In this document: positions 995 through 53,042 of the stretch, one piece after another | How the letters are laid out: each line of letters starts with the position of its first letter | Numbering within the stretch: position 1 is the stretch's first letter | Source of the DNA: Ideonella livida | GTDB taxonomy: Bacteria; Pseudomonadota; Gammaproteobacteria; Burkholderiales; Burkholderiaceae_C | Assembly: GCF_010499455.1 (NCBI RefSeq) | Contig: NZ_JAAGOH010000014.1 | Span: 1 to 64,000, forward strand | Reading direction: 5' to 3' | DNA: 64,000 nt | Translations under genes and position numbers: made by a program | The notes under the pieces: generated by a model | What the model saw: the letters and a program-made list of their open reading frames with translations, nothing else | Databases searched by the model: none | What the model was told of the DNA's origin: nothing

Positions 995-1051
995 GGTGGG
1001 GTGGGGCGAAGGGTAGGGCGTGAAGCCGGGTCAGCGCGATGGGCGCAAGTC

Positions 1052-1960
1052 TTACTGGGCGCTCAGGCGGTCCACGATGGCGCGCAGGGTGCGGTAGCCC
1101 TTCTGGGCGTACTCGTAGCTGGGGGCCACGGCCGGGTCTTGCTCGGCCTCCACCACCAGCCAGCCCTGGTAGCCGGCGGCATGCAGGGTGCTGAGCACCT
1201 CGTCGTAGTTCAGGGCGCCGTCACCGGGCACGGTGAAGGTGCCGGCCAGCACGCCCTTCAAGAAACTCCACGCGTCGTTGCGGGCGGTGGCGATGACGGC
1301 GGTGCGAACGTCCTTGCAGTGCACATGCACCACCCGCGTCACATGCTTCTTGAGCAGGGCCACCGGGTCGGCGGCGCCACCAAAGTAGGCGTGGCCGGTG
1401 TCAAACAGCAGGCCCACATAGGCGGGGTTCGTCAGGGCCATCAGCTTGTCCACGTCCTCGGGCGACTCCACGTAGGCGCCCATGTGGTGGTGGTAGGCCA
1501 GTTGGATGCCGTACCGGGCCAGCAGGTGCTCGCCAAAAGCGTTCAGGCGCTGGGCGTAGCCTTGCCAGGCGGCCTCATCGGCAAACTTGGGGCGGCGCGA
1601 GACGGGGGTGTCCATCTGGCCCTGCACGGTGCCGGCGCACTCGCCGTACACCACCACCTTCACGCCGTTGTACTGCAGCTTGGCCATGTGGTCGTGGCAG
1701 CGCTCGATCTCGTCTTCCAGCGTGCCTTCGGCCAGGAAGCCGGAATACCAGCCTGACACGCAGGCCAGGCCGAATTCGTCGAGCTTGGCTTTCAGGCCCG
1801 GGCCGTCCTTGGGGAACTTGTTGCCCAGCTCAAAGCCTTCGTAGCCGATCTCCTTGCCTTCGGCCAGGGCCTTCTCCAGCGGGGTCTCGCCCCCCAGGGA
1901 AGGCAGGTCGTCGTTCATCCAGGACAGGGGGTTGATGCCGATGCGGACGTTCCAGGTCAT
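1052..1960 (-). CDS. iolE: Myo-inosose-2 dehydratase IolE
   Basis: IolE dehydrates 2-keto-myo-inositol (inosose) to the trihydroxycyclohexane-dione used by IolD. It is a metal-dependent xylose-isomerase-like TIM barrel of 302 aa, the usual length. The N-terminus (IGINPLSWMNDD) is characteristic. Metal-site regions are visible as AYHHHMGAYVE, LLFDTGHAYFGG, HVHCKD and a C-terminal VVEAEQDPA. It lies 48 bp after iolD in the same orientation. The gap contains TTTCTAGAAA at 1970-1979, which shares the CTAG core with motifs in the iolC promoter region. A second, more distant barrel of this type lies at 50.7-51.6 kb. Confidence 0.95.
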   Translation of the reverse strand: MTWNVRIGINPLSWMNDDLPSLGGETPLEKALAEGKEIGYEGFELGNKFPKDGPGLKAKLDEFGLACVSGWYSGFLAEGTLEDEIERCHDHMAKLQYNGVKVVVYGECAGTVQGQMDTPVSRRPKFADEAAWQGYAQRLNAFGEHLLARYGIQLAYHHHMGAYVESPEDVDKLMALTNPAYVGLLFDTGHAYFGGAADPVALLKKHVTRVVHVHCKDVRTAVIATARNDAWSFLKGVLAGTFTVPGDGALNYDEVLSTLHAAGYQGWLVVEAEQDPAVAPSYEYAQKGYRTLRAIVDRLSAQ

Positions 1961-2008
1961 GTTGAGGTCTTTCTAGAAATGGAAGAGGAGGGGTGGGGCC
2001 GCCGCGCC

Positions 2009-3886: not shown

Positions 3887-3933
3887 GTCAGAGGGGGTCA
3901 GAGGTGTCTGGGGTCAGGAGGTGGGGCCGGGGC

Positions 3934-5874
3934 TCAGCGGCGGCTGGCACGCCAGGCATCCACCAGGGTGCTGAAGTTGCCGGCCACGGTGGCCACCAGG
4001 CCGGCGTCGTCCAGCCGGCCTTGCAGCCAGGCCAGGCTGGGCTCGGCCCAGAGGGTGCGGCCCACCATGAAGCCCTTGACGATGGGGTGCGTGGCTTGCT
4101 TGAAGCCTTCGGCCAGCACGGCCATCGGCTGGCTCAGGCCCAGGATGACGGCGCCACGGCACCAGGGGTCACGCTCGGCCACCAGCTCGGCCAGGGCCTG
4201 CCAGCCCTCGGCCTGCATGGGCGAGAGCTTCCACCACTCGGGCTTGAGGCCCAGGTTGTAGAGGCGCTTGACGCTGCGCAGCACGGCCTCGTCCTCGGTG
4301 CCGGCGGGGGTCACGGCCTTGGGCGGGATCACCTCCAGCAGCAGCTCATGGCCGCTGGTGCGGGTGGCCTCCCACAGCTCCATCAGGCGTTGTTCCTGTT
4401 CCAGGCGCAGGTCGGCGCGGTCGTCGGGGTGGTAGTGCACCAGGCACTTGACCACCTGCTCGCGCGGCCAGCTCAGCAGCGCGCTGCCCACGGACTGGGT
4501 CTGGTCAAAGCGCAGCGGGCGCGAGCTGGGCAGCTCGATGGGGCGGCCCACCCACCAGCCGCGGCCGGTGGCGTCGCACAGGGCGTCGTGGCCGTAGCCG
4601 CCGCCGTCAATCAGCACGCCGGTGCGGCCTTGCAGGTCGCGCGCGGCCTCCACCTGCTCGGCGGCACGCACCAGCAGCTTTTTCAGGGCGGGGATGCGGG
4701 TCTCCGGCGCGCCGGCCTGGCGGCACAGGTCGTAGAACTGGGCGCGGTGGTCAAAGGCGATGACGTTCAGCTCCGGCCACTGCACACGCGCTGCACTGGC
4801 GCGGTGCAGGTGGTTGAGCGTGGGGTCGGCATCGGGTTTGGGGTGGCGGTGGCCGCTGAACCAGTGGGCCAGCTCAGCCGGCGTGGGCATGGCCGGCGCG
4901 CAGGCGTGGCGCGACACCACGATGGCCCCGCAGGCGTTGGCAATGGCCGCTGCGCCGTGGAAGTCCTTGCCGGTGAGAAAGCCGGTGAGCAGGCCCGAGG
5001 CGAAGGCGTCACCCGCGCCCAGCACGTTGAGCACCTCCACCCGCTCGCCCTGCGCGGTGGGCGCCTGGCTCAGATCGGCCGGGATGGGCTGGCCGGCGGC
5101 AATGAAGCAGCAGCCCTTGGCGCCCAGCTTGACCACCAGCGCCGCCGGGGTGACGGCGCGCACCGCACGCAGTGAGCCCGGCAGGTCATGCGCCACGCCG
5201 CCGGCGATGAGGAACTCCTCCTCGGTGCCGATCAGCAGGTCAAACTGCGGCAGCACGGCCTGCAGGCGCTGGCTGACGGCGGCGTCGGGCACGTAGCGGT
5301 TGGCGCCTTCGCCGCGGGCGGTCAGGCCCCACAGCACGGGGCGGTAGTCGATGTCCAGCACGCGCAGGGTGCCGGCCTCACCGGCGGCCTTCAAGGCGGC
5401 CAGCGAGGCGGCCCGGGTGCCGTCGGTGGAGAGGTGGGTGCCGGTGATGAGCAGGGCGCGGCAGTCGGCAATGAAGGCCGGGTCGATGCCGGCGGCGTCC
5501 AGCGCCATGTCGGCGCAGTTCTCGCGGTAGAACAGCAGCGGGAAGGTGTCGCGGTCCTTCAGGCCCAGCAATACCAGGCCGGTCAGGCGCTGCGGATCGG
5601 TCTGCACCTGGGTGGTGTCGCAGCCTTCGCGCTGCAGCGTCTCCACCAGGAAGCGGCCCATCTGCTCATCGCCCACACGGGAGATCATGGCGGCGCGCAG
5701 GCCCAGGCGGGCCGCGCCAAAGGCGATGTTGGCCGAGCTGCCGCCCAGGTACTTGGCAAAGCTGGCCACGTCTTCCAGGCGCGAGCCCACCTGCTGGGCG
5801 TAGAGGTCCACCGCCAGGCGGCCCAGGCAGGCCAGGTCGAAGCGGCGGCCGGTGGGAATCGAGAGTGTGGTCAT
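3934..5874 (-). CDS. iolC: Bifunctional 5-dehydro-2-deoxygluconokinase / DUF2090 (IolC-IolJ-like fusion)
   Basis: Residues 1 to about 330 are a PfkB-family sugar kinase with the signature NVLGAGDAF near residue 285; it phosphorylates DKG to DKGP. Residues from about 335 to 646 form a DUF2090 domain, a TIM-barrel fold found fused to IolC in many Proteobacteria and proposed to act as the DKGP aldolase that gives dihydroxyacetone phosphate and malonate semialdehyde. At 646 aa it is about twice the length of stand-alone Bacillus IolC. No separate iolJ is present nearby, which fits the fusion supplying both steps. First gene of the minus-strand operon; the ATG at 5874 faces the divergent control region. 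Aldolase activity is inferred from the family. Confidence 0.93.
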   Translation of the reverse strand: MTTLSIPTGRRFDLACLGRLAVDLYAQQVGSRLEDVASFAKYLGGSSANIAFGAARLGLRAAMISRVGDEQMGRFLVETLQREGCDTTQVQTDPQRLTGLVLLGLKDRDTFPLLFYRENCADMALDAAGIDPAFIADCRALLITGTHLSTDGTRAASLAALKAAGEAGTLRVLDIDYRPVLWGLTARGEGANRYVPDAAVSQRLQAVLPQFDLLIGTEEEFLIAGGVAHDLPGSLRAVRAVTPAALVVKLGAKGCCFIAAGQPIPADLSQAPTAQGERVEVLNVLGAGDAFASGLLTGFLTGKDFHGAAAIANACGAIVVSRHACAPAMPTPAELAHWFSGHRHPKPDADPTLNHLHRASAARVQWPELNVIAFDHRAQFYDLCRQAGAPETRIPALKKLLVRAAEQVEAARDLQGRTGVLIDGGGYGHDALCDATGRGWWVGRPIELPSSRPLRFDQTQSVGSALLSWPREQVVKCLVHYHPDDRADLRLEQEQRLMELWEATRTSGHELLLEVIPPKAVTPAGTEDEAVLRSVKRLYNLGLKPEWWKLSPMQAEGWQALAELVAERDPWCRGAVILGLSQPMAVLAEGFKQATHPIVKGFMVGRTLWAEPSLAWLQGRLDDAGLVATVAGNFSTLVDAWRASRR

Positions 5875-6165: not shown

Positions 6166-7098
6166 ATGATGAAGAAGCTGCTGTTGGCCGCCGCTGCCGC
6201 CGCCACCCTGGGCGCCATGCCCGCCCATGCGCAGAAGATCGGCGTGTCCATGGCGCTGTTCGACGACACCTTCCTGACCATCCTGCGCAATGGCATCACC
6301 GAGGCCGGCAAGAAGGCCGGCGCCACCGTGCAGATCGAGGATGGCCGCAACGACGTGGGCACCCAGCTCAGCCAGGTCCAGAACATGATCGCCCAGAAGG
6401 TGGACGCGATCATCGTCAACCCGGTGGATACCGACGTGACCCCCAAGATCACCAAGATGGTGGCCGCCGCGGGCATCCCGCTGGTCTATGTGAACCGCAA
6501 GCCCACGGACTTTGCCCAGCTGCCGGCGGGTGTGGCCTTCGTGGCCTCTGACGAGAAGGTCTCGGGCACCCTGCAGACCCAGCACATCTGCAAGCTGCTC
6601 AAGGGCAAGGGCAACATCCTGGTGCTGATGGGCGAGCTCTCCAACGAGGCCGCGCGCACCCGCACCAAGGACATCGAGGACGTGGTGGCCACCAAGGAAT
6701 GCTCGGGCATGAAGATCGTCGACAAGCGCGAGGGCAAGTGGAGCCGCACCAACGCACAGGACATCACCACCAACTGGCTGACCTCGGGTGTGAAGTTCGA
6801 CGCCATCATCGCCAACAACGACGAGATGGCCCTGGGCGCCATCAATGCCCTGAAGGCCGCCAAGAAGTGGACCCCGGCCTCCATCGTCGGCGGCATCGAC
6901 GCCACCCCCGACGCCCTGGCCTCCATGAAGGCCGGTGACCTGAAGGTCACGGTGTTCCAGAACGCCGCCGGCCAGGGCGCGGGCTCGGTGGAGGCGGCCA
7001 TCAAGCTGATCAAGAAGCAGCCGGTGGACCGTTTCGTCAACGTGCCCTTCGAGCTGGTCACCCCGGAGAACCTGAGCAAGTACGCCGGCAAGAACTGA
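6166..7098 (+). CDS. Sugar (probable inositol) ABC transporter periplasmic binding protein
   Basis: This is a periplasmic-binding-protein type 1 (RbsB-like) solute receptor of 310 aa. A Sec signal peptide covers about residues 1-23, with cleavage likely after AHA in MPAHAQ. The mature N-terminus [13 protein letters not shown] and the motifs [14 protein letters not shown] and GGIDATPDA are typical of sugar and inositol receptors (IbpA/InoB-like). AGGAG at 6152-6156 supports the ATG at 6166. It begins the plus-strand transporter operon facing iolCDEB, which is the main reason for proposing inositol as ligand. A hairpin follows the stop codon. Confidence 0.85.
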
Positions 7099-7139: not shown

Positions 7140-7193
7140 GGCCTTCGGGCCGCCTTGGGTGGCGACCCGACGCATTCCTTCCGCGAGCGATCC

Positions 7194-8729
7194 ATGTCCG
7201 ACACCCTCACCGCCGAGCGCGGCCCTCTGGCCAGCGCCACCGCCCCCGCGCCCTTGCTGGAGATCGAAGGCATCCGCAAGGCCTTTCCCGGCGTGGTGGC
7301 CCTGGACAACGTGCGCTTTGCGCTGCGTGCGGGCACGGTGCACGCCCTGATGGGCGAGAACGGCGCCGGCAAGTCCACGCTGATGAAGATCATCGCCGGC
7401 GTCTACACCCCCGATGCCGGGGAGATCCGCCTCAAGGGCGAGCCCGTCACCCTCCACGGCCCGCTCGACGCCCTCAACCACGGCATTGCCATGATCCATC
7501 AGGAGCTCAACCTGATGCCTTTCATGACCGTGGCCGAGAACATCTGGATCCGCCGCGAGCCCAAGAACCGCTTCGGCTTGGTGGACCACGCCGAGCTGCG
7601 CCTGCGCACCCAGCGCCTGTTCAACCGCCTGTCCATCGACATCGACCCCGAGACCGAGGTGCGCTACCTGTCGGTGGCCAACCGTCAGATGGTGGAGATC
7701 GCCAAGGCCGTCTCCTTCGACTCGGACGTGCTCATCATGGACGAGCCCACCTCGGCGCTGACCGAGCGCGAGGTGGCCCACCTGTTCCGCATCATCCGGC
7801 AGCTGCGCGAGCAGGGCAAAGGCATCGTCTACATCACCCACAAGATGAACGAGCTGTTCGAGATCGCCGACGAGTTCTCGGTGTTCCGCGACGGCAAGTA
7901 CATCGGCACCCACGCCTCTCAAGACGTGACCCGCGACGACATCATCCGCATGATGGTGGGCCGCGAAATCACCCAGATGTTCCCCAAGGAGACCGTGCCC
8001 ATCGGCGACGTGGTGCTCTCGGTCCAGGACCTGGGCGTGGAGGGCGTGTTCAGCGGCGTGAGCTTTGAGCTGCGCGCCGGCGAGATCCTGGGCCTGGCCG
8101 GCCTGGTGGGCTCTGGCCGCTCCAACGTGGCCGAGGCACTGTTTGGCGTGGTGCCCGCCACCCAGGGCGAGATCCGCCTGAACGGCGAGGTGGTGCACAT
8201 CCGCCAGCCGGCCGACGCCCTGCGCCACGGCATGGCCTTCCTCACCGAAGACCGCAAGGACACCGGCTGTTTCCTCATCCTGGACATCCTCTCCAACATG
8301 GAGACCGCCGTGCTGCACGACCGCTACGTGCGCTGGGGCTTTGTCCAGCAGAAGCAGCTGCAGGCTGACTGCGAGGCCATGTCGCGCACCCTGCGCGTCA
8401 AGACCCCGGGCCTGGACGAGGTGATCCAGAACCTCTCCGGCGGCAACCAGCAGAAGGTGCTGATCGGCCGCTGGCTGCTCACCAAACCCCGCATCCTCAT
8501 CCTGGACGAGCCCACCCGCGGCATTGACGTGGGCGCCAAGGCCGAGATCCACCGCCTGGTCAGCCGCCTGGCCGGCGAGGGCGTGGCCGTGCTGATGATC
8601 AGCTCGGAAATGCCCGAGGTGCTGGGCATGAGCGACCGCGTGATGGTGATGCACGAGGGCCACATGACCGGCATCCTCGACCGCAGCGAGGCCGACCAGG
8701 TCCGCGTGATGGAGCTGGCCTCACGCTGA
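7194..8729 (+). CDS. Sugar ABC transporter ATP-binding protein (duplicated ATPase)
   Basis: This is the cytoplasmic ATPase of a carbohydrate-uptake-2 (RbsA/MglA-like) transporter, 511 aa, with two ABC domains in tandem. The first has Walker [10 protein letters not shown] (about residue 55), Walker [11 protein letters not shown] and a degenerate signature SVANRQ. The second has the altered P-loop usual in this family (GLVGSGRSN), the signature LSGGNQQK and Walker [11 protein letters not shown]. The ATG at 7194 (MSDTLT) is preferred over an upstream in-frame TTG at 7155. It pairs with the permease 59 bp downstream, which would act as a homodimer. Confidence 0.92.
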
Positions 8730-42834: not shown

Positions 42835-43941
42835 CTACAGGTTCTCGGCCGTGGTCAGGTGCAGCGGCAGGATCCACTGGGCGGCGCAGGCGCGCTCGGC
42901 CGCGGGCTGGCTCAGGCATGCCATCATGGCCTGGACCACCTGGGCGGCGATCTGGGCGGGCGGGGTGTCCAGCACCACGTCCACCACGCCATCGGCCAGG
43001 GCGGTGCGGTGGTCGGCGGTCAGGCCGTTGGCCACCACCACCACATGGCCGCCGGGGTGGCCGGGCGGGCGCTCGGTCCGCAGCGCGCGCAGGGTGCCGG
43101 CCATGCCACCGCCGCCGGCGTCGTACAGCCCCACCAGATCGGGGTGGCGCTGCAGCAGGTTCAGCGTCATCTCGTGCGCCACCTGCGGGTCCTCCAGGTT
43201 CACCAGCGTGTCCAGCACGGTAAAGCCGGGCGCATGTTCACGCAGGTAGGCCCGAAAACTCATCTCGCAGGCCTCATGCCCCAGGTAGCGGTGGCTGCCC
43301 ACGGCCACGCACACCGGGCCGGGCCGGCGGGCCAGCCGGCTCACCGCCCAGGCGGCTTGGCGGCCGCAGCGGCGCGGGTCCATGCCCACATAGCCGGCGC
43401 GCAGCGGCGCGCTCAGGTCTGAGAGCAGCGCCCACACCGGCTTGCCGGCCTCGTGCAGCTCGGCCACCGCCGCGCTCACATGCGGATGGTCCATGGCCAC
43501 CACGCCCAGGGCGTCCACCTCCTGGCCCAGGCTGCGCATGCGGGTGGCCACGGCGGCAGGGTCCAGGTCGTCCACATAGTCGATCACGGCCAGGCAAACG
43601 TCACGCCCCTGGGCCTGGGCGGCGGCGCTGAGTTGCTGGCCAAAGGCCCGGTAGAAGGCCTCGTGGCAGCGCAGCAGCAGAAAACCCAGGGTCCGGATCT
43701 GGCGCTCGCCCCGCTCCTGCAGCCGCGCGCGCATGAGCGAGGCGCCGTGGTAGCCCAGCCGTTCGGCCGCCTCGATCACCCGCAGGGCGGTGCCCTCACG
43801 CACCGGCAAGCGGCTGTTGAGCACGCGGTCCACCGTGGCGCTGCCCACGCCCGCGGCCTGCGCCACGTCGGCCAGGGTGGGGCGGCGGCTCACGGCTGGT
43901 GCCCTCCGCTGCGGGATTTCCCGTGGTGGCATGCCAGCCAT
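42835..43941 (-). CDS. LacI-family regulator 1 of the moc-like locus
   Basis: A LacI-type regulator of 368 aa from the ATG at 43941. The N-terminal helix-turn-helix is TLADVAQAAGVGSATVDRVLNSR with the hinge region to about residue 75; the rest is a periplasmic-binding-protein type 1 sugar-binding domain. It shares the rare block EMSFRAYLREHAPGF with the second LacI at 51.9 kb, so the two are paralogues. It diverges from the oxygenase operon at 44.1 kb, its likely target. The binding domain suggests a sugar or cyclitol effector. Confidence 0.9.
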   Translation of the reverse strand: MAGMPPREIPQRRAPAVSRRPTLADVAQAAGVGSATVDRVLNSRLPVREGTALRVIEAAERLGYHGASLMRARLQERGERQIRTLGFLLLRCHEAFYRAFGQQLSAAAQAQGRDVCLAVIDYVDDLDPAAVATRMRSLGQEVDALGVVAMDHPHVSAAVAELHEAGKPVWALLSDLSAPLRAGYVGMDPRRCGRQAAWAVSRLARRPGPVCVAVGSHRYLGHEACEMSFRAYLREHAPGFTVLDTLVNLEDPQVAHEMTLNLLQRHPDLVGLYDAGGGGMAGTLRALRTERPPGHPGGHVVVVANGLTADHRTALADGVVDVVLDTPPAQIAAQVVQAMMACLSQPAAERACAAQWILPLHLTTAENL

Positions 43942-44077
43942 GATGTAAATGATGGATTCATCGCCATGGTGTTTGATCGCCTTTGATGGCAAATGATGGA
44001 CTTCCATTGTCCATCTTGAACGTGGTTCCTAGCATCCGCTCCCATTCCTTCACCCAGAACGAATCAGGAGACACCCC
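43942..44077. promoter_or_regulatory. Divergent LacI1 / oxygenase operon control region
   Basis: An inverted repeat GATGGAC (43995-44001) and GTCCATC (44009-44015) with a 7-bp centre lies about 65 bp before the oxygenase ATG. GATGG recurs in the same 70 bp (near 43952 and 43985). CAGGAG at 44068-44073 is the oxygenase ribosome-binding site. The palindrome is the best candidate operator. Confidence 0.6.
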
Positions 44078-45235
44078 ATGCCCGACCTGTCCCCGCCGCC
44101 GCAGCCCCCGCGCGAAAGCCGCGGCGAATACGACCTGCTCACCGGCTGGGGCCCTCAGGCCCAGGCCGCTGGGTTGGTGGGCGCCCGCTGGTACCAAAGC
44201 CCCGTGCCGCGCGCGCAGCTCAAGGCCTTGATGCAGCGCCAAGACGGCCCGGCCCTGCGCGACACCGCCCTGTGGCTGGCCCTGGTGGGGGCAGCCGGCG
44301 TGGCCATGGCCGCCACCTGGGGCGGCCCGTGGTTCGCCCTGGCCTTCTTGGTCTACGCCACGCTGTTCACCGGCGCGGCCGACTCGCGCTGGCATGAAAG
44401 CAGCCACGGCACCGCCTTCAAGACCCGCTGGATGAACGACGCGCTCTACCAGCTGGCCAGCTTCATGGCCCTGCGCCGGCCCACCCGCTGGCGCTGGAGC
44501 CACGCCCGCCACCACAGCGACACCCTGGTCACCGGCCGCGACCCCGAGGTCAACGCCGTGCTGCCGCTGCCGCTGGGCACCTTGCTGCTCAACGTCTTTG
44601 CCCTGCGCTACGCCCCGGGGGAATACGCCCGCGTGCTGGCCAATGCCCTGGGCCGCATCAGCCCGCAGGAGAAGAGCTACGTGCCCGAGAGCGAATGGCC
44701 GCGCATGGTGCGCGAGGCCCGCGCCTGGGTGGCGGTGTATGCGGCCGTGGTGGCCCTGGCGGTGGGGCAAGGCAGTGCGCTGCCGCTGTTCTTCGTGGGC
44801 CTGCCCGCCTTTGTGGGGGCCTGGGTGCACACCTTCTTTGGTCTGACCCAGCACGCCGGCCTGCCCGAGAACGTGCTGGACCACCGCCTGAACTGCCGCA
44901 CGGTGGTGATGAACCCGGTGTTCCGCTTTCTGTACTGGAACATGAACTACCACGTGGAGCACCACATGGTGCCCATGGTGCCGTACCACGCCCTGCCGGC
45001 GCTGCATGCCGCCATCCGCGCCGACTGCCCGCCGCCTTACCCCAGCCTGGCCGCCGCCTATGCCGAGATCCTGCCCGCCCTGTGGCGCCAGCGGCAGGAC
45101 CCGCACTGGGCCGTGCGGCGGCCGCTGCCTGATGCGGCCGGTGTTGCGGCGGCCGCACCCCCCGCACCCCCCGGGGCCACCGTGCTGCCCCATCCCGCCA
45201 CCCCCTCCCCCTTGACCCCTGGAGCCCAACCATGA
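44078..45235 (+). CDS. mocD: Membrane di-iron oxygenase, MocD-like (fatty-acid-desaturase superfamily)
   Basis: A 385-aa integral membrane protein with the three histidine boxes of the desaturase/hydroxylase superfamily: HESSH (106-110), HARHH (142-146) and NYHVEHH (290-296), with an extra His in TQHAGL (259). Hydrophobic segments flank the boxes. MocD of rhizopine loci belongs to this superfamily and, with the MocE ferredoxin and MocF reductase, is required to demethylate 3-O-methyl-scyllo-inosamine. The same partners follow here with 4-nt overlaps. A lipid role is unlikely given the dedicated Rieske partner and the inositol-type neighbours. The last 30 or so residues are a proline-rich tail. 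Confidence 0.75.
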   Translation: MPDLSPPPQPPRESRGEYDLLTGWGPQAQAAGLVGARWYQSPVPRAQLKALMQRQDGPALRDTALWLALVGAAGVAMAATWGGPWFALAFLVYATLFTGAADSRWHESSHGTAFKTRWMNDALYQLASFMALRRPTRWRWSHARHHSDTLVTGRDPEVNAVLPLPLGTLLLNVFALRYAPGEYARVLANALGRISPQEKSYVPESEWPRMVREARAWVAVYAAVVALAVGQGSALPLFFVGLPAFVGAWVHTFFGLTQHAGLPENVLDHRLNCRTVVMNPVFRFLYWNMNYHVEHHMVPMVPYHALPALHAAIRADCPPPYPSLAAAYAEILPALWRQRQDPHWAVRRPLPDAAGVAAAAPPAPPGATVLPHPATPSPLTPGAQP

Positions 45236-45555
45236 GCCGCTGGATCGACGCCTGCGCCCTGGACGACATCGACGACGAGGACGTCCGCCCCTTTGAGCAC
45301 CAAGGCCACGCCTACGCCCTGTACCGGGTGGACGGCCAGGTCTATGCCACCGACGGCCTGTGCACCCACGAGCGCGTGGCCCTGTGCGACGGCCTGGTGA
45401 TGGACCACGTCATCGAATGCCCCAAGCACAACGGCCGCTTTGACATCCGCACCGGCCGTGCGCTGGGCGCGCCGGTGTGCGTGAACCTGCGCACCTACCC
45501 CGCCAAGGCCGACGGTGGCCGCGTGTTCATCCAGATCCACACGGAGCCCGCATGA
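45232..45555 (+). CDS. mocE: Rieske ferredoxin, MocE-like
   Basis: A 107-aa soluble Rieske [2Fe-2S] ferredoxin with ligands C44, H46, C63 and H66 (LCTHERVALC and ECPKHNGRF). It probably feeds electrons from the reductase to the di-iron oxygenase. Its ATG overlaps the oxygenase stop (ATGA), and its stop overlaps the reductase start in the same way, so the three are translationally coupled. It is distinct from the nagAb ferredoxin at 16.8 kb but has the same fold. Confidence 0.8.
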   Translation: MSRWIDACALDDIDDEDVRPFEHQGHAYALYRVDGQVYATDGLCTHERVALCDGLVMDHVIECPKHNGRFDIRTGRALGAPVCVNLRTYPAKADGGRVFIQIHTEPA

Positions 45556-46853
45556 ACCTGCCGCCCCCCGCCATGGTGATCGTGGGCGGCGGCCATGTGG
45601 GTGGCCGCGCCGCCCAGGCCCTGCGTGAAGGCGGCTGGACCGGCCCCATCGTGCGCATCGGGGCCGAGGCCCATCCGCCCTACGAGCGCCCGCCGCTGTC
45701 CAAGGGCCTGCTGGCCGGCCAGCAAACCGCCGCCGACTGTGCCCTGCGCCCGCCGGCTGTTGAAGCGGCCGAAGGCATCCAGGCCCTGGAAGCCTGGGCC
45801 GAGGGCCTGGACCTGGCCCGGCGCGAGGTGCTGGTGGTGGGCGGCCCGCAACGGGTGCGCCGCCGCATCCGTTTTGCCGGCCTGCTGCTGGCCACCGGCG
45901 GCCACCCGCGCCGCCTGGACGTGCCCGGGGCCGACGCCGCCGGCCTGCTGAGCCTGCGCACCTTGGACGACGCCACGGCCTTGGCGCAACGGCTGCGGGC
46001 ACCGCGCCCGGCCGGCGCCGGGCCGCTGCGCCTGGTGGTGGTGGGCGGTGGTTTCATTGGCCTGGAGGTGGCCGCCACCGCCCGCGCCCTGGGCGCCGAG
46101 GTGACGCTGCTCGAAGGCGCCCCGCGCCTGCTGGGCCGCAGCCTGCCGGCGGCCATGGCCGATCAGGTGGCCGCACTGCACCGCCGCCATGGCGTGGACC
46201 TGCGCCTGGGCTGCCCGCCGCTGGCCTTTGCCCGCCAGCCTGACGGCCGCACCCGGGTGACGCTGCCTGAAGGCGAGGCCCTGCTGGCTGATGCGGTGGT
46301 GGTGGGCATTGGCATCACCCCGGCCACCGAGCTGGCCCAGCAGGCCGGCCTGACCCTGGGACCCGGCGGCGGCATTCAGGTGGATGCCCAGTTGCAGACC
46401 AGTGCCCCCGGCATCTACGCCGCCGGCGATGTGGCCGAGTTCCCCAGCCCCTTGAGCGGCGCGCTCATCCGCCAGGAGACCTGGCTGAACGCCGACACCC
46501 AGGCCCGTGTGGCGGCGGCCAACCTGCTGGGCCAGGGCCTGCGTTATGAGCAGCCGGCCGGGTTCTGGTCAGACCAGTACGGCCACCAGGTGCAGGTGGC
46601 CGGCGAGCCGGCCTTGGGTGTGCGCACCGTGCGCCGCCTGCTGCGCGGTGCTGACCCGCTGGCCGACCCGCTGGGCGCGCAGATCGACTTCCACCTCAAT
46701 GCCGCCGGCCAGCTGGTGGGCGCCAGCGGCTTTGGCCCCGTGGCCGATTTGGCCAAGGAGTTCAAGCTCGCCCGCCTGTTGGTGGAGCGCCGCCGCCAGC
46801 CCCCGCCCGAGGCCCTGGCCGACCCCACCCTCAAGCTCAAGAGCCTGGCATGA
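45552..46853 (+). CDS. mocF: FAD-dependent ferredoxin reductase, MocF-like
   Basis: A 433-aa NAD(P)H:ferredoxin reductase of the BphA4/PdR type. The N-terminal FAD loop is VGGGHVGG, followed by PPYERPPLSKGLLAG. The NAD(P) loop is VVVGGGFIGLEVAATARALG (around residues 160-180). The second FAD motif is APGIYAAGDVAEF, and the C-terminal domain begins near WSDQYGHQVQVAG. It overlaps both neighbours by 4 nt (ATGA). It completes the reductase-ferredoxin-oxygenase chain. Confidence 0.82.
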   Translation: MNLPPPAMVIVGGGHVGGRAAQALREGGWTGPIVRIGAEAHPPYERPPLSKGLLAGQQTAADCALRPPAVEAAEGIQALEAWAEGLDLARREVLVVGGPQRVRRRIRFAGLLLATGGHPRRLDVPGADAAGLLSLRTLDDATALAQRLRAPRPAGAGPLRLVVVGGGFIGLEVAATARALGAEVTLLEGAPRLLGRSLPAAMADQVAALHRRHGVDLRLGCPPLAFARQPDGRTRVTLPEGEALLADAVVVGIGITPATELAQQAGLTLGPGGGIQVDAQLQTSAPGIYAAGDVAEFPSPLSGALIRQETWLNADTQARVAAANLLGQGLRYEQPAGFWSDQYGHQVQVAGEPALGVRTVRRLLRGADPLADPLGAQIDFHLNAAGQLVGASGFGPVADLAKEFKLARLLVERRRQPPPEALADPTLKLKSLA

Positions 46854-47881
46854 CGCCCGCCACCCCATCCTCCACGCCCCCAGCCACCCCGGCCACCCCC
46901 CGCCCCCTGCCCGTGGGCATCAACCTCGACGGCGTGCTGCGGCACGACGGCCTGCCCACCCCCACCGCCGGCGAGCGCTTGGCCTGGGTTGCCCGCAGCG
47001 GCGCCTTTGACTATGTGGAGAAGAACCTCGACCCGCGCGAGGACTTCAGCCCCTATCCCGCGCTGGCCGAGCAGCATGGCCTGCCCCTGGGCGTGATGGG
47101 CGGCATCTTCTGCGTGGGGCGTGATGAGGTGTTCATGCGTTGGGGCATCGCCCTGGCCGGTCGTCTGGGCGCGCGCCTGTTCAACATGCAGGTCTTTGCC
47201 CGCCATGCCGATGGCCACACCCTGAGCGACGAGGAGCTGATGGCCTTCTACCTGGACGCGCTGGACCACGGCACCCGCGCCGGCTGCCTGCCCAGCCTGG
47301 AGGTGCATGTGGACATGTGGAACGAGCGCTTCCGCCGCGTGGCCGCTGTGGGCGAGCGGCTGGCGCAGCGCCACCTGCCCCTGCGCCTGACGCTGGACCA
47401 CTCGCACCTGATCTTCAAGCTGGGCCAGGCGGCCGAACTGGCCGCCAGCGGCCTGGCCGACGCGCCCGACGGCGGCCACGCCCTGCTGGCGCCCGACGGG
47501 GCAGCCACCCTCTACCGCGACTTGCTGCGTGAGGGCTGGGTGGTGCACGCCCACGCCCGCAGCGTGGCCCCCGGCGTGGCGTGCAACCCGGTGCAGCAGC
47601 GTGCCCCGGGCGTGCCCGGCCGCGCCATCCAGTACCCCTTCATCGAGCCGCCGCCCGGCAGCTTCCACACCGACTGGCAGGCCCAGCGGCTGGAACCCTG
47701 GAAGCAGGCCGTGCGCGACCTGCTGCACTGGATGCGCACCGAGCCCCACCGCGCCCCGCAACAGATCTCCTGCGAGTTCATCCCCTTCCCCGACTACGGC
47801 GGCGGCGCCCGCTACGACATCATGGGTCAGAACATCGCCTGCGCCCATTGGCTGCGGCAGCACTGGGCCGCGTTGCATTGA
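46850..47881 (+). CDS. TIM-barrel protein of the xylose-isomerase-like superfamily
   Basis: A 343-aa barrel protein, fourth gene of the oxygenase operon, overlapping the reductase stop by 4 nt. A proline/threonine-rich leader of about 18 residues precedes the barrel, which begins VGINLDGVLRHDG. Potential metal or substrate residues occur in EVHVDMW, LTLDHSHLIFK, VVHAHARSV and SCEFIPFPDYGG. The sequence is divergent from IolE, IolH and IolI. An isomerase, epimerase or dehydratase acting on the demethylated cyclitol is a reasonable guess, but no specific family was recognised. Confidence 0.7.
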   Translation: MTPATPSSTPPATPATPRPLPVGINLDGVLRHDGLPTPTAGERLAWVARSGAFDYVEKNLDPREDFSPYPALAEQHGLPLGVMGGIFCVGRDEVFMRWGIALAGRLGARLFNMQVFARHADGHTLSDEELMAFYLDALDHGTRAGCLPSLEVHVDMWNERFRRVAAVGERLAQRHLPLRLTLDHSHLIFKLGQAAELAASGLADAPDGGHALLAPDGAATLYRDLLREGWVVHAHARSVAPGVACNPVQQRAPGVPGRAIQYPFIEPPPGSFHTDWQAQRLEPWKQAVRDLLHWMRTEPHRAPQQISCEFIPFPDYGGGARYDIMGQNIACAHWLRQHWAALH

Positions 47882-47914
47882 GGCGCGCCGCGCCGCTCGG
47901 TGCGGTCGGTCCGG

Positions 47915-48388
47915 TCAGTCCGGCCCGCCCCGGTGCAAGCCGTCGGCGGCCGGGCCGCCCGGGGGCGGGCAGGGCGATTCGGCGGCGCCGGGGGCGCCGT
48001 GGCTCAGCCGCTCCAGGATGCCGCAGTGGGCCACATCGCCATGGGCGGCGGCGCAGGCCTGGCGCAGGGCCAGCAACTGGGCTTCCAGCGCCTGCAGCTC
48101 GGCAATGCGCCGCGCCACATGGCCGATGTGCGCGTCCAGCAGGGTGTTGACCTCGGCGCAGTCGGCCTGGGGTTGATCCTTCAGTTGCAGCAGCTGGCGG
48201 ATCTCGTCCAGGTTCATGCCCAGCGCCCGCCCCCGGCGGACAAAGGCCAGGCGCTCGGCATGCGCCTCACCGTACAGGCGGTAATTGCTGCCGGTGCGCG
48301 GCGGCGCGGGCAGCAGGCCCTGGCGCTCGTAGTAGCGGATGGTTTCCACCGGGGTGCCGGTACGCTGGGCCAAATCTCCAATCTTCAT
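47915..48388 (-). CDS. MerR-family metal-responsive regulator (CadR/PbrR-like)
   Basis: A 157-aa MerR protein with the N-terminal winged helix (MKIGDLAQRTGTPVETIRYYE) and dimerisation helix. Cysteines at 77, 112 and 122 resemble the metal-binding Cys set of Cd(II)/Pb(II)-responsive CadR/PbrR (77, 112, about 119). The C-terminal tail has a further Cys and is proline/glycine-rich. No efflux pump or metallochaperone gene is next to it; it sits convergent with the oxygenase operon. Regulator class is firm; metal identity is tentative. Confidence 0.8.
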   Translation of the reverse strand: MKIGDLAQRTGTPVETIRYYERQGLLPAPPRTGSNYRLYGEAHAERLAFVRRGRALGMNLDEIRQLLQLKDQPQADCAEVNTLLDAHIGHVARRIAELQALEAQLLALRQACAAAHGDVAHCGILERLSHGAPGAAESPCPPPGGPAADGLHRGGPD

Positions 48389-48425
48389 GCCCCGATTCTG
48401 CGGCCTGGGGGCCGCAGGTCGGGCG

Positions 48426-49343
48426 TCAGCCCAGGTGGCGGTTCACCAGCGCCTGGAGCTGATCGCGCATGAAGCGGCTGGAATCCGCCGCGCGGTCTTC
48501 CCAGGCGAAGACGCAGGCCGAGATCAAGCCGTCAAAGCCCACCTCACCCAGGGTCTTGAACAGGGTCTCGAAGTCCACCTCACCCTGGCCGATGTCCAGG
48601 TGCTGGTGCACGCGGACCTGGCTGCTGCCAGGCGGGTTGACGATGTAGCGCAGCTGGCTGCTCTTCTTGTGGTTGAAGGTGTCGGCCACGCGCACATGGG
48701 CCAGCAAGTCGCCGGCTTCGCGCACCATCGCGGCCACATCTTCTCCGTAATAGAAGGTGTGCGGGGCGATGAAACTGAGCTTCAGGGCCTGGGAGCCGAG
48801 GTTGCGCACGATGTCGCAGGCGGGCTGGTAGGTCTCGATCCAGTCTTCGGGGTGCGGCTCCACGCTCAGCGTGATGCCTTCGCGCTCCAAGATCGGCAGC
48901 AACTCGTCCATGGAGCGGAACCAGGCGGCTTCGCAGGCTTCCTTGGTGTTGAGGTTCAAGGCGGTGCCGGCGGTGGCGGCCACGCTGCGCTCGGGCGAGG
49001 CACCGCGGCCGAATTCGCTGACCATGAGGCGGCAGTCCATCTCCACCGCCACTTCAATGGCCTTCTTCCAGCAGCGCACGGCCCACTGGCGCTCGTCTTC
49101 AAACGGGCTGGCCCAGCGGTACATGGGCTGCAGGCTGGCCAGGCCCACGCCGGCTGAGCGCATGGCGGCCTTGAAGGCGGCCATGCGCGGTGCGGTGGCG
49201 CGGGGCATGACCCACCAGTCCAGAAAGTCGCTGCGGGGCGAGAGTTCGATCTGGTCATAGCCCAGCTCGGCCACCGCGCCGGGCAGTTCGCTCAGGCTCA
49301 GGTGGCGGATCATGTAGGGATCCAGCGCGATCTGCATGCTCAT
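48426..49343 (-). CDS. IolH-like sugar phosphate isomerase/epimerase (TIM barrel)
   Basis: A 305-aa xylose-isomerase-like barrel. The N-terminus, IALDPYMIRHLSLSELPGAVAELGYDQIELSPRSDF, in two stretches, resembles IolH proteins from inositol operons. Putative metal ligands are in LMVSEFGRG, LSVEPHPEDWIE, SFIAPHTFYYG and HQHLDIGQGEVDF. It is the last gene of the minus-strand operon with a MocA-like dehydrogenase and MocC-like barrel, and a hairpin repeat separates it from the dehydrogenase. Exact reaction unknown even for the family. Confidence 0.78.
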   Translation of the reverse strand: MSMQIALDPYMIRHLSLSELPGAVAELGYDQIELSPRSDFLDWWVMPRATAPRMAAFKAAMRSAGVGLASLQPMYRWASPFEDERQWAVRCWKKAIEVAVEMDCRLMVSEFGRGASPERSVAATAGTALNLNTKEACEAAWFRSMDELLPILEREGITLSVEPHPEDWIETYQPACDIVRNLGSQALKLSFIAPHTFYYGEDVAAMVREAGDLLAHVRVADTFNHKKSSQLRYIVNPPGSSQVRVHQHLDIGQGEVDFETLFKTLGEVGFDGLISACVFAWEDRAADSSRFMRDQLQALVNRHLG

Positions 49344-49374
49344 GGTGCTTGCTCCTCAGTCCAAAGTTCACGGT

Positions 49375-49443
49375 CTCAAGAAAGCGCAGGGCCGCCCCGA
49401 GCTTTCTTGACCCCCTCGGGGGGCCTGACGTCCGAAGGGCGGC
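49375..49443. repeat. Dispersed hairpin repeat, copy 2 (inverted relative to copy 1)
   Basis: The reverse complement of 35491-35563 with a few changes. Arms TCAAGAAAGC (49376-49385) and GCTTTCTTGA (49401-49410) enclose GGGCCGCCCC, next to CCCCCTCGGGGGG. It overlaps the last 20 or so codons of the dehydrogenase gene and supplies its stop codon. Confidence 0.75.
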
Positions 49444-50626
49444 AGGTTTGGGGGTCGTCATATCGCACCCACACGCCGCCCTGGTCGGCGGAACGCACGC
49501 AGTGCTCCACCCAGCGCACCCCCTGCACGCCGGCGTGCACGTCGGGGTAGCGCAGGCGGGCCAAGCGGGCGGTGTCGCCCCGGTCGGTGGCGTCCATGGC
49601 CAGGGCAAAACGGCGGTAGAGATTGCTCCAGGCCTCGAACAGGCCTTCGGGGTGACCGCCGCCAATGCGGTCATCGGCCAGCGCCGCCGGGTGCAGGTAG
49701 CCCATGCCGCGCTCCAAGATGCGCACCGGCTCGCCCTGCACCTCCAGGCGCAGCTGGTTGGGCTGCTCGTCCCACCATTCCAGGCTGGCCCGGCTGCCGA
49801 TCACACGGATCTTCTGCCCGTGCATGGAGCCCGCGTTGACCGCGCTGGACCACACCGTGCCCACCGCGCCGCCGTGGTACTTCATCAGGGTGAAGGCGTT
49901 GTCTTCCAGCGGCGCGCGGCTGGCCACAAAACTCTGGCGCGTGCACAGCAGGGATTCAATCTTCAGCTCCGGCAGCATCACCTCAGACAGGTACAGCGGG
50001 TGCGTGCCCACGTCGCCCAGCACGTAGCTGGGGCCGGCCATGGCCGGGTCCACCCGCCAGCGGGTGGCGGGGTTGTCGGCCTCGGCCGCCGCGCTGTGAA
50101 AGCCGTGGGCAAACTGCATCTGCACGATGCGGATCTCGCCCAGCGCGCCGGCAGCAATCAGCTCACGCGCCTCTTCAATCAGCTGGTGGCCGGCGTAGCC
50201 GTAGGTCACGCCCAGCACCTTGCGCTGCTGCTCGCTCAAGGCTTGCAGCTCCAGCGCCTGGGCGGTGGTGAAGCACAGGGGCTTCTCGCACACCACATGC
50301 AGGCCGGCCAGCAAGGCGGCCCTGCAGATGGCGTAGTGCGTGCCATTGGGCGTGGCCACCGAGACGGCCTGAATGCCATCGGGACGCTGCGCCTCGGCGG
50401 CGAACATCTCGGCATAGGTGGCGTAGCAGCGCTCGGGCGCCAGGCCCAGGCGGGTGCCAAAGGCGCGGCCGGCGGCCGGGTCCAGGTCAAAGGCGCCGGC
50501 CTGCAGGGCGAAATGGCCGTCGCGCAGGGCGGCCGAGCGGTGGATGTAGCCAATCTGGCTGCTCTTGCCACCGCCTACCATGCCCCAGCGCAGCGGGGCG
50601 GCCAGTTCTTGTTCACCGTTGATCAT
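49376..50626 (-). CDS. Gfo/Idh/MocA-family dehydrogenase (inositol/inosamine dehydrogenase-like)
   Basis: An NAD(P)-dependent oxidoreductase of 416 aa. The Rossmann domain (GMVGGGKSSQIGYIHRSAAL; VSVATPNGTHYAICRAALLAGLHV in segments; CEKPLCFT with the conserved Lys) is followed by the catalytic region with DVGTHPLYL. It is related to MocA/IolG/IolW enzymes that oxidise inositols to inososes. The ATG at 50626 follows GGAG. The last residues (about 397-416, RPSDVRPPEGVKKARG) are encoded by a dispersed repeat and are probably a non-native tail. It is the only candidate here for the first step missing from the iolCDEB operon. Confidence 0.85.
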   Translation of the reverse strand: MINGEQELAAPLRWGMVGGGKSSQIGYIHRSAALRDGHFALQAGAFDLDPAAGRAFGTRLGLAPERCYATYAEMFAAEAQRPDGIQAVSVATPNGTHYAICRAALLAGLHVVCEKPLCFTTAQALELQALSEQQRKVLGVTYGYAGHQLIEEARELIAAGALGEIRIVQMQFAHGFHSAAAEADNPATRWRVDPAMAGPSYVLGDVGTHPLYLSEVMLPELKIESLLCTRQSFVASRAPLEDNAFTLMKYHGGAVGTVWSSAVNAGSMHGQKIRVIGSRASLEWWDEQPNQLRLEVQGEPVRILERGMGYLHPAALADDRIGGGHPEGLFEAWSNLYRRFALAMDATDRGDTARLARLRYPDVHAGVQGVRWVEHCVRSADQGGVWVRYDDPQTCRPSDVRPPEGVKKARGGPALS

Positions 50627-50695
50627 GTGTCTTGTCTCCGTGGTGTGTGGGGTGGCCGCGTGGAGGGCGGCGCAATGCAATGCGGGGCAAAGGGG

Positions 50696-51625
50696 TCACG
50701 CAAACCCGATGCCGCGCAGGTACTCGCGGCTGGCGCGCACATCGCGCAGGCTGGTGTCGGCGTGGCGCGGGTCGCGTTCTTGCTCCACGGTGATGGCGCC
50801 TTGGTAGCCGATGTCCAGCAGCGTCTGGCGGATGGCGGGGTAATCCAGCGCGCCCTGGCCCATGGGGCACATCACCCCCTGGGCACAGGCATCAAAAAAG
50901 CGCACCGGCTCGCCCGCCAGGATCCGCGCCAGGCGCTCGGCGTTCACATCCTTGAAGTGCACATAGTCCAGCCGGGCGGCGTGCTCGCGCAGCCAGGCCT
51001 GAGGGTTCATGCCGGAATAGAACAGGTGGCCGGTGTCCAGGCACAGGCCGGCCTCGTCGTGCGGCACCTCGGCCACCAGCCGGCGAATCTCGTCGTCAAA
51101 CTCGATGAAGCCCCCGGCATGCGGGTGGATGACGGCGCGCACGCCGTGGCGGTCGCGCGCCAGCCGGGCCAAGGTGCGGATGTGTTCCACCATGCGGCGC
51201 CAGTCGGCTTCAGCCAGTCGCGGCGCCTGGGCACTGCGGCCGGCGGCCAGGTCACGCGCCAGGCTGCCCCAGTCGATCAGCACCAGATAGGGCGCCGGGT
51301 GGGCCTTGCCCGCATCGGCCGGCGGGGCGGGCAGCTGCTTGAGCAAGGCGCAGATCTGGTCGGCCTGGGTCCGCAGCTTCTCCAAGTTCTCGGGGCTCAC
51401 CAGATCGTCAAAGATCGTGCCGGCCACGATGTGCAGGCCACGCTGGCGCAACTCGGCGCCCAGGCGGGTGGGGTCCTGGGGCAGGTAGCCCCAGGGGCCC
51501 AGCTCCAGCCCGGCGTAGCCCGCGGCGGCGGCTTCGTCCAGCACCTTGGTCCAGGGGGGCAGGTGGGGGTTGCGCACGTCGTCCACCCCCCAGCAGCAGG
51601 GGGCGCTTGTGATGCGTTGGGTCAT
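50696..51625 (-). CDS. IolE/MocC-like TIM-barrel protein
   Basis: A 309-aa xylose-isomerase-like barrel of the IolE/MocC group. Its N-terminus (SAPCCWGVDDVRNPHLPPW) and LELGPWGYLPQDP match proteins annotated as rhizopine catabolism MocC. Metal-site segments are IHPHAGGFIE, LCLDTGHLFYSG, YVHFKDVN and a C-terminal ITVEQERDP. It begins the minus-strand operon and diverges from the second LacI gene. A dehydratase or isomerase acting on an inosose or keto-inosamine is likely; it differs enough from iolE to suggest another substrate. Confidence 0.78.
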   Translation of the reverse strand: MTQRITSAPCCWGVDDVRNPHLPPWTKVLDEAAAAGYAGLELGPWGYLPQDPTRLGAELRQRGLHIVAGTIFDDLVSPENLEKLRTQADQICALLKQLPAPPADAGKAHPAPYLVLIDWGSLARDLAAGRSAQAPRLAEADWRRMVEHIRTLARLARDRHGVRAVIHPHAGGFIEFDDEIRRLVAEVPHDEAGLCLDTGHLFYSGMNPQAWLREHAARLDYVHFKDVNAERLARILAGEPVRFFDACAQGVMCPMGQGALDYPAIRQTLLDIGYQGAITVEQERDPRHADTSLRDVRASREYLRGIGFA

Positions 51626-51772: not shown

Positions 51773-51878
51773 GCTCGGGCCCGGGTTCTCCCGCGCGCTG
51801 CCGTGGTGCCCGGTGGCACCCATGCCCCGTTGGCCCCAGCCATCGCTGCCGATCACTCACCCTCCACCCCTGCCCGCC

Positions 51879-53042
51879 ATGTGCCCCGATTTGCCGATGG
51901 ATCCCCTCGACACCGCGTCGGTTGACGCCGCCGCCGAACTGGCTGAACCGGCTGACGGCGCCCCCACCCGCCGCCGCCTGGGCCGCGCCACACTGGAAGA
52001 CATTGCCCAGGCCGCCGGCGTGAGCCTGTCCACCGTGGACCGCCTGCTCAATGCCCGCGCCCCGGTGCGAGGTGACACGGCCGAGCGGGTGCGCGCTGCG
52101 GCCGAGCGCCTGGGTTTTCGCGCCAGCGGGGTGATTGCCCAGCGGGTGAACCAGCAGCGGCCGCGCCGGCGTTTGGGCTTTTTGCTGCAGCGCCCGGCCT
52201 CGGGCTTCTACCGGGCCCTGGGCCGGGCCCTGACCGACGCCGTGGAGCAGGCCCCCGACATCCGCGGCCAAGCCCACATCGCCTACCTGGACGACCTCTC
52301 GGCCGAGGCCGTGGCCGAGCGCATGCTGGCCTTGGGCGCCGAGGTGGACGCCCTGGCCGTGGTGGCGGCCGACCACCCCCGGGTGCACGCCGCCATGGCC
52401 AGCCTGCAGGCGCGCGGCGTGCCGGTGTTTGCGCTGGTTTCTGAGCTGAGCAGCCCGCTGTGCGCCGGCTTTGTGGGGCCCGATTCACGCAAGGTGGGCC
52501 GCAGCGCCGCGTGGTTCATCGCCGGCCTGGCGCGCACCCCGGGGCCGGTGGCCATTTTTGTGGGCACGCACCGGTTTCAGTGCCAAGAGCTCAGTGAAAT
52601 GAGCTTTCGCTCCTACATGCGCGAGCACGCCCCCGGCTTTGAGGTGCTGGAGCCGGTGATGACGCTGGACAGCCCCACGATGGCCGAAGAAGCCATGCGA
52701 TCCCTGCTGCTGCGCCACCCCGACCTGCGCGGTTTTTATGTGGACGGCGGCGGCATTGAAGGCGTGCTGCGCGCCTTGCCCGCCGCCCGCGCCGAGGGCC
52801 TGCTGGCCGAGCAGACCGAACCGCTCATTGGCGTGGCCCACGACCTCACCCCCGACACCCTGGCCGGCCTGCAGACCGGGGCCCTGCACGCCGTGCTCTC
52901 TATGCCCCGCCCCCAACTGGCCCAGGGCCTGGTGCGCGGCATGGTGGACGCCCTGGCCAGCGCCGAATCGGCCACCGGCCCCAGCCACCGCCCGCTGCGG
53001 CTCATCTTGCCGCTGGAGACGTGGACGCCCGAGAGCGTGTGA
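51879..53042 (+). CDS. LacI-family regulator 2 of the moc-like locus
   Basis: A LacI-type regulator of 387 aa from ATG 51879; ATG 51897 is also possible and neither has a good ribosome site. An acidic/Pro-rich leader precedes the helix-turn-helix TLEDIAQAAGVSLSTVDRLLNAR. The effector domain shares EMSFRSYMREHAPGF, FVG-D and DAxGG-type stretches with LacI 1 at 42.8 kb. It diverges from the MocC-like/MocA-like/IolH-like operon and probably regulates it. Confidence 0.88.
   Translation: MCPDLPMDPLDTASVDAAAELAEPADGAPTRRRLGRATLEDIAQAAGVSLSTVDRLLNARAPVRGDTAERVRAAAERLGFRASGVIAQRVNQQRPRRRLGFLLQRPASGFYRALGRALTDAVEQAPDIRGQAHIAYLDDLSAEAVAERMLALGAEVDALAVVAADHPRVHAAMASLQARGVPVFALVSELSSPLCAGFVGPDSRKVGRSAAWFIAGLARTPGPVAIFVGTHRFQCQELSEMSFRSYMREHAPGFEVLEPVMTLDSPTMAEEAMRSLLLRHPDLRGFYVDGGGIEGVLRALPAARAEGLLAEQTEPLIGVAHDLTPDTLAGLQTGALHAVLSMPRPQLAQGLVRGMVDALASAESATGPSHRPLRLILPLETWTPESV

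Follow-up and report, generated by a model that had tools for sequence, protein, structure and literature searches.

The model of MocDEF action is reportedly due to Bahar in 1998. In rhizobia, mocDEF is accompanied by a pfam01261 barrel gene and by divergent homologs of LacI/FixV; the inference drawn there is that an inositol derivative is catabolised (PMC3538637). Woody-host Pseudomonas syringae possesses mocDEF and xylA2 without mocCABR (PMC5132102), and root exudate raises mocDEF-like and inositol genes together in Rhizobium mesoamericanum (PMC5789663). A cyanobacterial 'mocD' is listed as a rhizopine oxygenase that converts 3-O-methyl-scyllo-inosamine to scyllo-inosamine (PMC2593844), a step which is thus a demethylation. 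Methylated cyclitols are reported to account for a major share of the carbohydrate in many plant species (PMC5889025), and among the open papers listed in searches aimed at pinitol or methyl-inositol breakdown, no title or abstract opening named a bacterial demethylase for them. Here, we analysed a stretch of 64,000 nucleotides (the window) from Ideonella livida (assembly GCF_010499455.1, contig NZ_JAAGOH010000014.1, positions 1–64,000 of the forward strand), to which all coordinates refer. It contains a four-gene operon for a MocDEF-type oxygenase and a triosephosphate-isomerase (TIM) barrel, P0004, which faces a second operon with an inositol-dehydrogenase-type protein. We estimate a probability of roughly 0.6 that this locus carries out the O-demethylation of an O-methyl cyclitol, that is, an O-methyl inositol, and thereby feeds the iol pathway.

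The oxygenase operon comprises four genes on the plus strand (44078–47881), each junction of which is exactly ATGA (at 45232, 45552 and 46850). An earlier note on this DNA had read them as an oxygenase, a Rieske ferredoxin, a reductase and a TIM barrel, and both the open reading frame positions and all the junctions were verified. The adjoining genes on the minus strand (48426–51625) were assigned by a Pfam scan to a PF01261 barrel (P0005), a Gfo/Idh/MocA protein (P0006) and a second PF01261 barrel (P0007), in agreement with the same note, so that this dehydrogenase operon is convergent (tail to tail) with the oxygenase operon. The iolEDBC genes, which the note had placed about 40 kilobases (kb) away, were likewise recovered, with iolB, iolE, iolD and iolC at 152–5874 and all above the curated cut-offs.

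The rhizobial reference was the moc cluster on a plasmid of Rhizobium indicum, which was picked by gene order and does not come from an experimentally tested strain. This cluster encodes, in order, an IolE-like protein, a Gfo/MocA protein, a binding protein, a pyridoxal-phosphate-dependent aminotransferase-family protein, which we read as a MocR-type regulator, MocD, MocE and MocF. The window's MocD, MocE and MocF are 52, 64 and 42% identical to their counterparts therein. MocD (P0001) matched PF00487 with 134.4 bits (cut-off 29.7), and nine histidines (H106, H110, H142, H145, H146, H259, H292, H295 and H296), which correspond to the three histidine boxes plus one additional histidine, were invariant in 17 of 17 aligned rows, including that of the window. 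MocE exceeded the TIGR02377 cut-off (146.5 bits against 136.15), and the adjacent reductase contains Pyr_redox_2 (213.5 bits) and Reductase_C (46.3 bits). Together with the position of MocD in the tree described below, these features support the assignment, already made in the earlier note, of a putative three-component oxygenase of the MocDEF type.

The MocD tree was built from 79 rows, namely that of the window, 45 of the 92 extracted MocD-like rows and all 33 others, in a quick search with Shimodaira–Hasegawa-like approximate likelihood ratio test (SH-aLRT) support only, a long-branch warning and no labelled AlkB row. The outsiders carry no curated function labels: L147–L150 were retrieved through the GntB model (best 302.5 bits, cut-off 380) and L151–L154 through the DesB model (best 44 bits, cut-off 500), and most of the others were weak matches to P0001 from genomes of the same family. 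The window's MocD falls inside a MocD clade (SH-aLRT 99 for the clade branch) along with MocD of the rhizobial moc cluster, its nearest row being that of Malikia granosa (L008; support 94, slightly under the starred level). Rather than clustering with lipid desaturases, an outcome that the earlier note had considered fatal to its proposal, MocD stood apart from the other PF00487 rows except L154, a presumed outsider positioned inside the clade, and L153, which neighbours it (support 90). Loci from Verrucomicrobiota and Chloroflexota (L027:4159–6543, L030:9944–12235, L045:2407–4692, L069:9953–12022 and L072:9878–12262) contained a MocD frame approximately twice as long (~690–795 residues), which looks as if fused with a ferredoxin and more. 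A same-family genome (G337; L141, L142, L143 and L166) was found to carry three MocD copies; MocE and IolH-like genes are repeated there too, and contig ends fall among these genes.

For neighbourhood analysis, the best 80 MocD loci of 581 relatives were kept, of which 56 extend 8 kb on both sides. In 77 of the 80, MocD has a MocE-type ferredoxin gene no more than 1.5 kb away, an association that is more than chance. Core iol genes, defined as those scoring >150 bits to the window's own, are located about 10 kb or nearer to MocD in the Burkholderiales loci L004, L005 and L020, as well as in L035, L046 and L058, which come from Acidiphilium, Lichenicoccus and a metagenome-assembled genome of Hyphomicrobiales. 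Within ~19 kb of a same-family genome (G462; L138), iolD–iolC, an ATP-binding cassette (ABC) transporter, regulator 1, MocDEF, a P0004 barrel and iolG (397 bits, cut-off 355) are found, and the window's gene order of iolC, ABC binding protein and ATPase is repeated there after iolC. In Sphaerotilus L005, iolE–iolD–iolC, ABC transporter genes and regulator 1 accompany MocDEF, behind which lie PanB-type and PurU-type genes (L005:12664–14336); these two also follow MocDEF in the rhizobial moc cluster (Rhizobium L093:11678–13414) and may handle the released one-carbon unit. MocDE is near an ABC transporter, iolG and iolC in Marivivens, and the neighbours of MocDEF in Burkholderia cenocepacia include iolG, a TIM barrel and a P0004 homolog. 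Because some relatives carry the same genes beside iolC/iolD/iolE, an ABC transporter and iolG, the link to inositol catabolism drawn in the earlier note is real. The background density was derived from 20 genomes, which hold 188 PF01261 and 138 PF02894 matches in ~135.8 million bases; the loci from these genomes would together be expected to contain 0.57 and 0.42 such genes, and our own profiles found 16 and 15, with PF01261-type matches in 13 and Gfo/Idh matches in 12 of the 20 loci. This enrichment is only rough, since different detectors gave the expected and the observed counts, loci of this sort were part of the material for the profiles, and the genomes are relatives of one another.

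The fourth gene of the operon, which the earlier note had been unable to place, encodes a protein of 343 residues (P0004), for which neither Pfam nor NCBIfam gave a match at E≤0.001. PF01261 matched five of the 16 members of the P0004 family at E≤1 (best 1.9e-5), P0004 itself not being among them. The AlphaFold2 model, computed from 15 aligned sequences, is a barrel with a predicted local distance difference test (pLDDT) value of 89.2 and a predicted template modelling score of 0.88. Its Foldseek neighbours include Art22, L-ribulose 3-epimerase, UlaE, IolE and C-glycoside deglycosidases, with E values of ~1e-7 to 1e-9 (down to 2.9e-9) and template modelling scores of only ~0.5, as obtained with a predicted model. 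P0004 is thus predicted to have a xylose-isomerase-like fold and belongs to no curated family. In the alignment, D183 and H186 are present in 16 of 16 rows, E151 in 15 and H235 in 11 (the other five having glutamine), and position E309 is glutamate or aspartate in all rows as judged by eye. We take these five residues to lie at the expected metal site of xylose-isomerase-like proteins, where they would presumably serve as ligands.

P0004 is, furthermore, a recurrent partner of MocD: homologs with 53–68% identity are encoded near MocD in L001, L008, L017, L019, L024, L025, L026, L028, L088 and L138, and at the end of a G337 contig (L166) a further one (57%) adjoins MocF. Among 200 same-family genomes including the window's own, a strong MocD (≥64% identity) was found in five and a close barrel (≥53%) in four, all of them among those five; in one, G371, only part of the barrel gene is seen, close to where a contig ends. 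Because L003 and L140 proved to be the same contig, G371 is the genome of L003 and was counted once. When the window's genome is left aside, the three barrel genomes all fall among the four MocD genomes of 199, for which chance would account with a probability of 3.1e-6 if the genomes were independent, which these relatives are not. In G409, MocD is accompanied by no more than a distant barrel (30%), and G342, G368 and G478 have distant barrels (35–38%) and no strong MocD. Across the order, P0004 matches were obtained in 7 of 300 genomes, all at 30–38% except the window's own, and the two same-genus genomes in the sample matched neither MocD nor P0004. Acinetobacter plasmids, which make up 38 of the 53 matched plasmid records, often carry distant homologs (29%), one of them (L107:4968–6044) beside an oxygenase of the isopenicillin-N-synthase family.

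In the convergent operon, P0006 is 72–74% identical to an inositol dehydrogenase homolog from Azotobacter vinelandii (7d5m and 7d5n; 684 bits with phmmer against 7d5m), which according to the structure titles was solved with nicotinamide adenine dinucleotide (NAD+) and with NADH plus myo-inositol, respectively. The predicted structure of P0006 was poor (pLDDT 41.8), and its Foldseek list was used solely for titles and sequence identities. A literature search for the two structures returned a single paper, which names 3dty. A levoglucosan-type pathway was rejected, as the best NCBIfam match of P0006, levoglucosan dehydrogenase, reached 68.4 bits against a cut-off of 650 and 7d5m was matched instead. 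Three further iolG-type genes are located at ~70–76 kb of the window's contig (C14) and scored 405 bits (cut-off 355), 285.5 bits (cut-off 355) and, against the myo/D-chiro-inositol model, 501.8 bits (below its cut-off of 540). On account of the last, a D-chiro-inositol-type dehydrogenase homolog ~18 kb past the locus, pinitol is among several candidate substrates. Three copies of the IolH-like gene are present in the genome (window 48426–49343; C14:69427–70338, i.e. L097:7427–8338; and C46:15156–16079, i.e. L098:9156–10079). The other two copies are 97.8–98.5% identical in DNA to that of the window, the identity stopping near the reading frame ends between flanks that look unrelated, a pattern that looks as after gene conversion or single-gene duplication.

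We infer the following pathway. MocF would draw electrons from NADH and pass them through MocE to MocD, which would hydroxylate the O-methyl group using O2 to give a hemiacetal that breaks down into formaldehyde and free inositol. The latter would be oxidised to an inosose by P0006 or by the iolG-type enzymes near 70–76 kb of the contig, and at least one of the three isomerase-type barrels (P0004, P0005 and P0007) would convert the inosose into the stereoisomer accepted by IolE, with IolE, IolD, IolB and IolC completing the breakdown. A cyclitol is also the probable ligand of the two LacI-type regulators, which are related and of which each operon has one. More tentatively, the four-gene operon might constitute a dedicated entry for plant O-methyl inositols such as pinitol in Burkholderiales outside the rhizobia, with P0004 founding an uncurated xylose-isomerase-like family with a step of its own, for example the isomerisation of the inositol's keto form, either after demethylation or with the methyl group still in place.

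Homologs of regulator 1 (54–68% identity) are divergent beside MocD in L001, L003, L004, L005, L008, L138 and L141, and regulator 2 shares 70% identity with the protein annotated as LacI-family regulator for this second operon in Sphaerotilus (L103). A shared operator was sought between both regulator regions, which yielded no common 16-mer with ≥13 matches and one imperfect palindrome only. The features of the window are compiled in Table 1. Between the P0004 and IolH-like genes, a MerR-type regulator is encoded on the minus strand (47915–48388), which we take from its resemblance to be of the metal-responsive type; a chromate efflux transporter is found at 17226–18593, also on the minus strand (TIGR00937, 222.6 bits, cut-off 171.7).

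Table 1. Genes of the oxygenase and dehydrogenase operons, their regulators, and the iol genes with the transporter genes next to them.
Feature	Coordinates	Strand	Remarks
LacI-type regulator 1	42835..44007	-	divergent from MocD; real start may be further in
MocD-like membrane di-iron oxygenase (P0001)	44078..45235	+	PF00487, invariant His boxes, MocD clade
MocE-family Rieske ferredoxin	45232..45555	+	TIGR02377 over cut-off
MocF-like flavin adenine dinucleotide (FAD) ferredoxin reductase	45552..46853	+	Pyr_redox_2 and Reductase_C
Barrel P0004, xylose-isomerase-like TIM barrel, no curated family	46850..47881	+	predicted fold; MocD neighbourhoods
P0005, IolH-like sugar/inosose isomerase-type TIM barrel	48426..49343	-	PF01261, 159 bits
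P0006, inositol-dehydrogenase-type Gfo/Idh/MocA protein	49376..50626	-	likely start ATG at 50626; resembles 7d5m/7d5n
P0007, IolE-like TIM barrel (PF01261), not true IolE	50696..51625	-	TIGR04379, 152 bits, cut-off 290
LacI-type regulator 2	51813..53042	+	divergent from dehydrogenase operon
iolB	152..994	-	TIGR04378, 320.2 bits, cut-off 205
iolE (true)	1052..1960	-	TIGR04379, 390.2 bits, cut-off 290
iolD	2009..3886	-	TIGR04377, 898.6 bits, cut-off 715
iolC (kinase/aldolase fusion)	3934..5874	-	NF047869, 990.3 bits, cut-off 600
Sugar/inositol-type ABC substrate-binding protein	6166..7098	+	RbsB-type models, under their cut-offs
Sugar-type ABC ATPase	7155..8729	+	MglA/RbsA-type models, 585–588 bits, under cut-off

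Several observations weigh against cyclitol demethylation coupled to the iol pathway. Core iol genes are in sight at only six of the 80 MocD loci, and within 8 kb of MocD the PF01261-type and the Gfo/Idh profiles are each matched in 25 of the 80 loci. Neither is matched in the nine Caballeronia loci (L007, L009, L011–L015, L018 and L022), and either one in only 4 of the 19 Verrucomicrobiota loci. In the window itself, the distance between the iol genes and the oxygenase operon is ~40 kb, and no PanB- or PurU-type gene was seen adjoining the operon. In Gemmobacter, finally, the gene for MocD has a 4-base overlap with that for an aldose 1-epimerase, downstream of an ABC transporter, which is a better fit to a methylated sugar. 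The oxygenase might hence demethylate an O-methyl sugar instead of a cyclitol, with the sugar product entering via the isomerase-type barrels. Consistent with this, MocD is present in Verrucomicrobiota, Chloroflexota and Bacteroidota, where the stretches fetched contained no core iol gene, and sugar epimerases are among the fold neighbours of P0004. However, MocDEF is beside iolC/iolD/iolE or iolG in some Burkholderiales relatives and the neighbouring P0006 is of the inositol dehydrogenase type, so we consider a sugar substrate unlikely.

The two operons might also be mere neighbours without a common pathway, MocDEF and its barrel being separate from the inositol operon. They converge and are therefore not one transcript, and P0007–P0006–P0005 members are absent from most of the 80 MocD loci. 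Moreover, and again at odds with a joint pathway, P0007–P0006–P0005 and a LacI regulator are found without MocDEF in stretches of 13–19 kb each from Sphaerotilus, Pantoea and an Agrobacterium plasmid, so this set is a module of its own. The last gene of these operons is 85, 37 and 59% identical to P0005, respectively, and in Sphaerotilus another Gfo/Idh gene precedes it. Against mere adjacency, homologs of P0006 (79%) and P0007 (62%) are near MocD in the Malikia locus L008, L001 has a P0005 homolog (81%) between MocE and the barrel, G337 has one ~1 kb from a MocE, and the two regulators are 48% identical to each other. Overall, we regard independence of the operons as distinctly unlikely.

Rhizopine (3-O-methyl-scyllo-inosamine) catabolism as in rhizobia, an option raised in the earlier note, draws on the aforementioned identities of MocD, MocE and MocF to the rhizobial moc cluster. 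Nevertheless, the best match in the genome to the model of the rhizopine binding protein MocB (NF052284) reached 310.7 bits, below the cut-off of 420, which makes this substrate unlikely. The search for an ortholog of the reference MocA, likewise picked by gene order, gave at best 91.6 bits and 29% identity in the genome, and no MocR-type regulator was found beside mocB or mocD, the best MocR match of the genome (45% identical) being on contig C28. The terms MocA-like and MocC-like of the earlier note find no support in the sense of orthology: in local alignments, P0006 is 27–30% identical to the two Gfo/Idh/MocA proteins of the rhizobial moc cluster, whose MocC shares 33% identity with P0007, versus 45% with the window's true IolE. 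In addition, a 19-kb stretch in which no other moc gene was seen annotated contains a MocD with 84% identity to the reference one. Rhizopine was thus rejected as the substrate and is, in our assessment, very improbable. A lipid desaturase or hydrocarbon hydroxylase that happens to employ a MocE-type ferredoxin, as the Pfam family name FA_desaturase might suggest, is already disfavoured and hardly credible, given that the tree, in which no labelled AlkB row represents the alkane hydroxylases proper, parts the MocD clade from the other PF00487 rows save two in or beside it, and that the DesA, DesB, CrtR and GntB models gave 20–35 bits with the window protein against cut-offs of 380–500.

With demethylation of an O-methyl cyclitol as the preferred reading, the locus is a directly testable four-gene candidate for this activity, and it suggests a far broader family of cyclitol or sugar demethylases, of which the rhizopine demethylase would be one recruit. 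Compared with the mocCABRDEF loci of Sinorhizobium meliloti L5-30 and Rhizobium leguminosarum, the window has MocD, MocE and MocF in the same order, inositol-type genes nearby and a probable role tied to the iol pathway; unlike them, it has no orthologs of MocA, MocB or MocR at the levels tested, a LacI-type instead of a MocR regulator, and an extra barrel gene joined by an overlap. With the fixV/LacI–mocDEF–msi119 (pfam01261) clusters of rhizobia (PMC3538637), it shares the divergent LacI-type regulator, the xylose-isomerase-like barrel and the proposed inositol derivative, but it belongs to Burkholderiales, its operon barrel is in no curated family and an inositol-dehydrogenase operon adjoins. 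Like P. syringae, it has mocDEF without mocCABR and an adjoining isomerase-type gene; xylA2 of the former is termed an alternative xylose isomerase and is likened here to P0004 by description, not sequence (PMC5132102). The Azotobacter inositol dehydrogenase homolog, known here from the structure titles, is a near relative of P0006. As the LacI–mocDEF–barrel link to inositol derivatives has already been published for rhizobia, the locus is not of a new kind but a variant, to which the present analysis adds how the genes are arranged in Burkholderiales, a barrel of no curated family that is often found with them, and the iol genes adjoining such loci in relatives.

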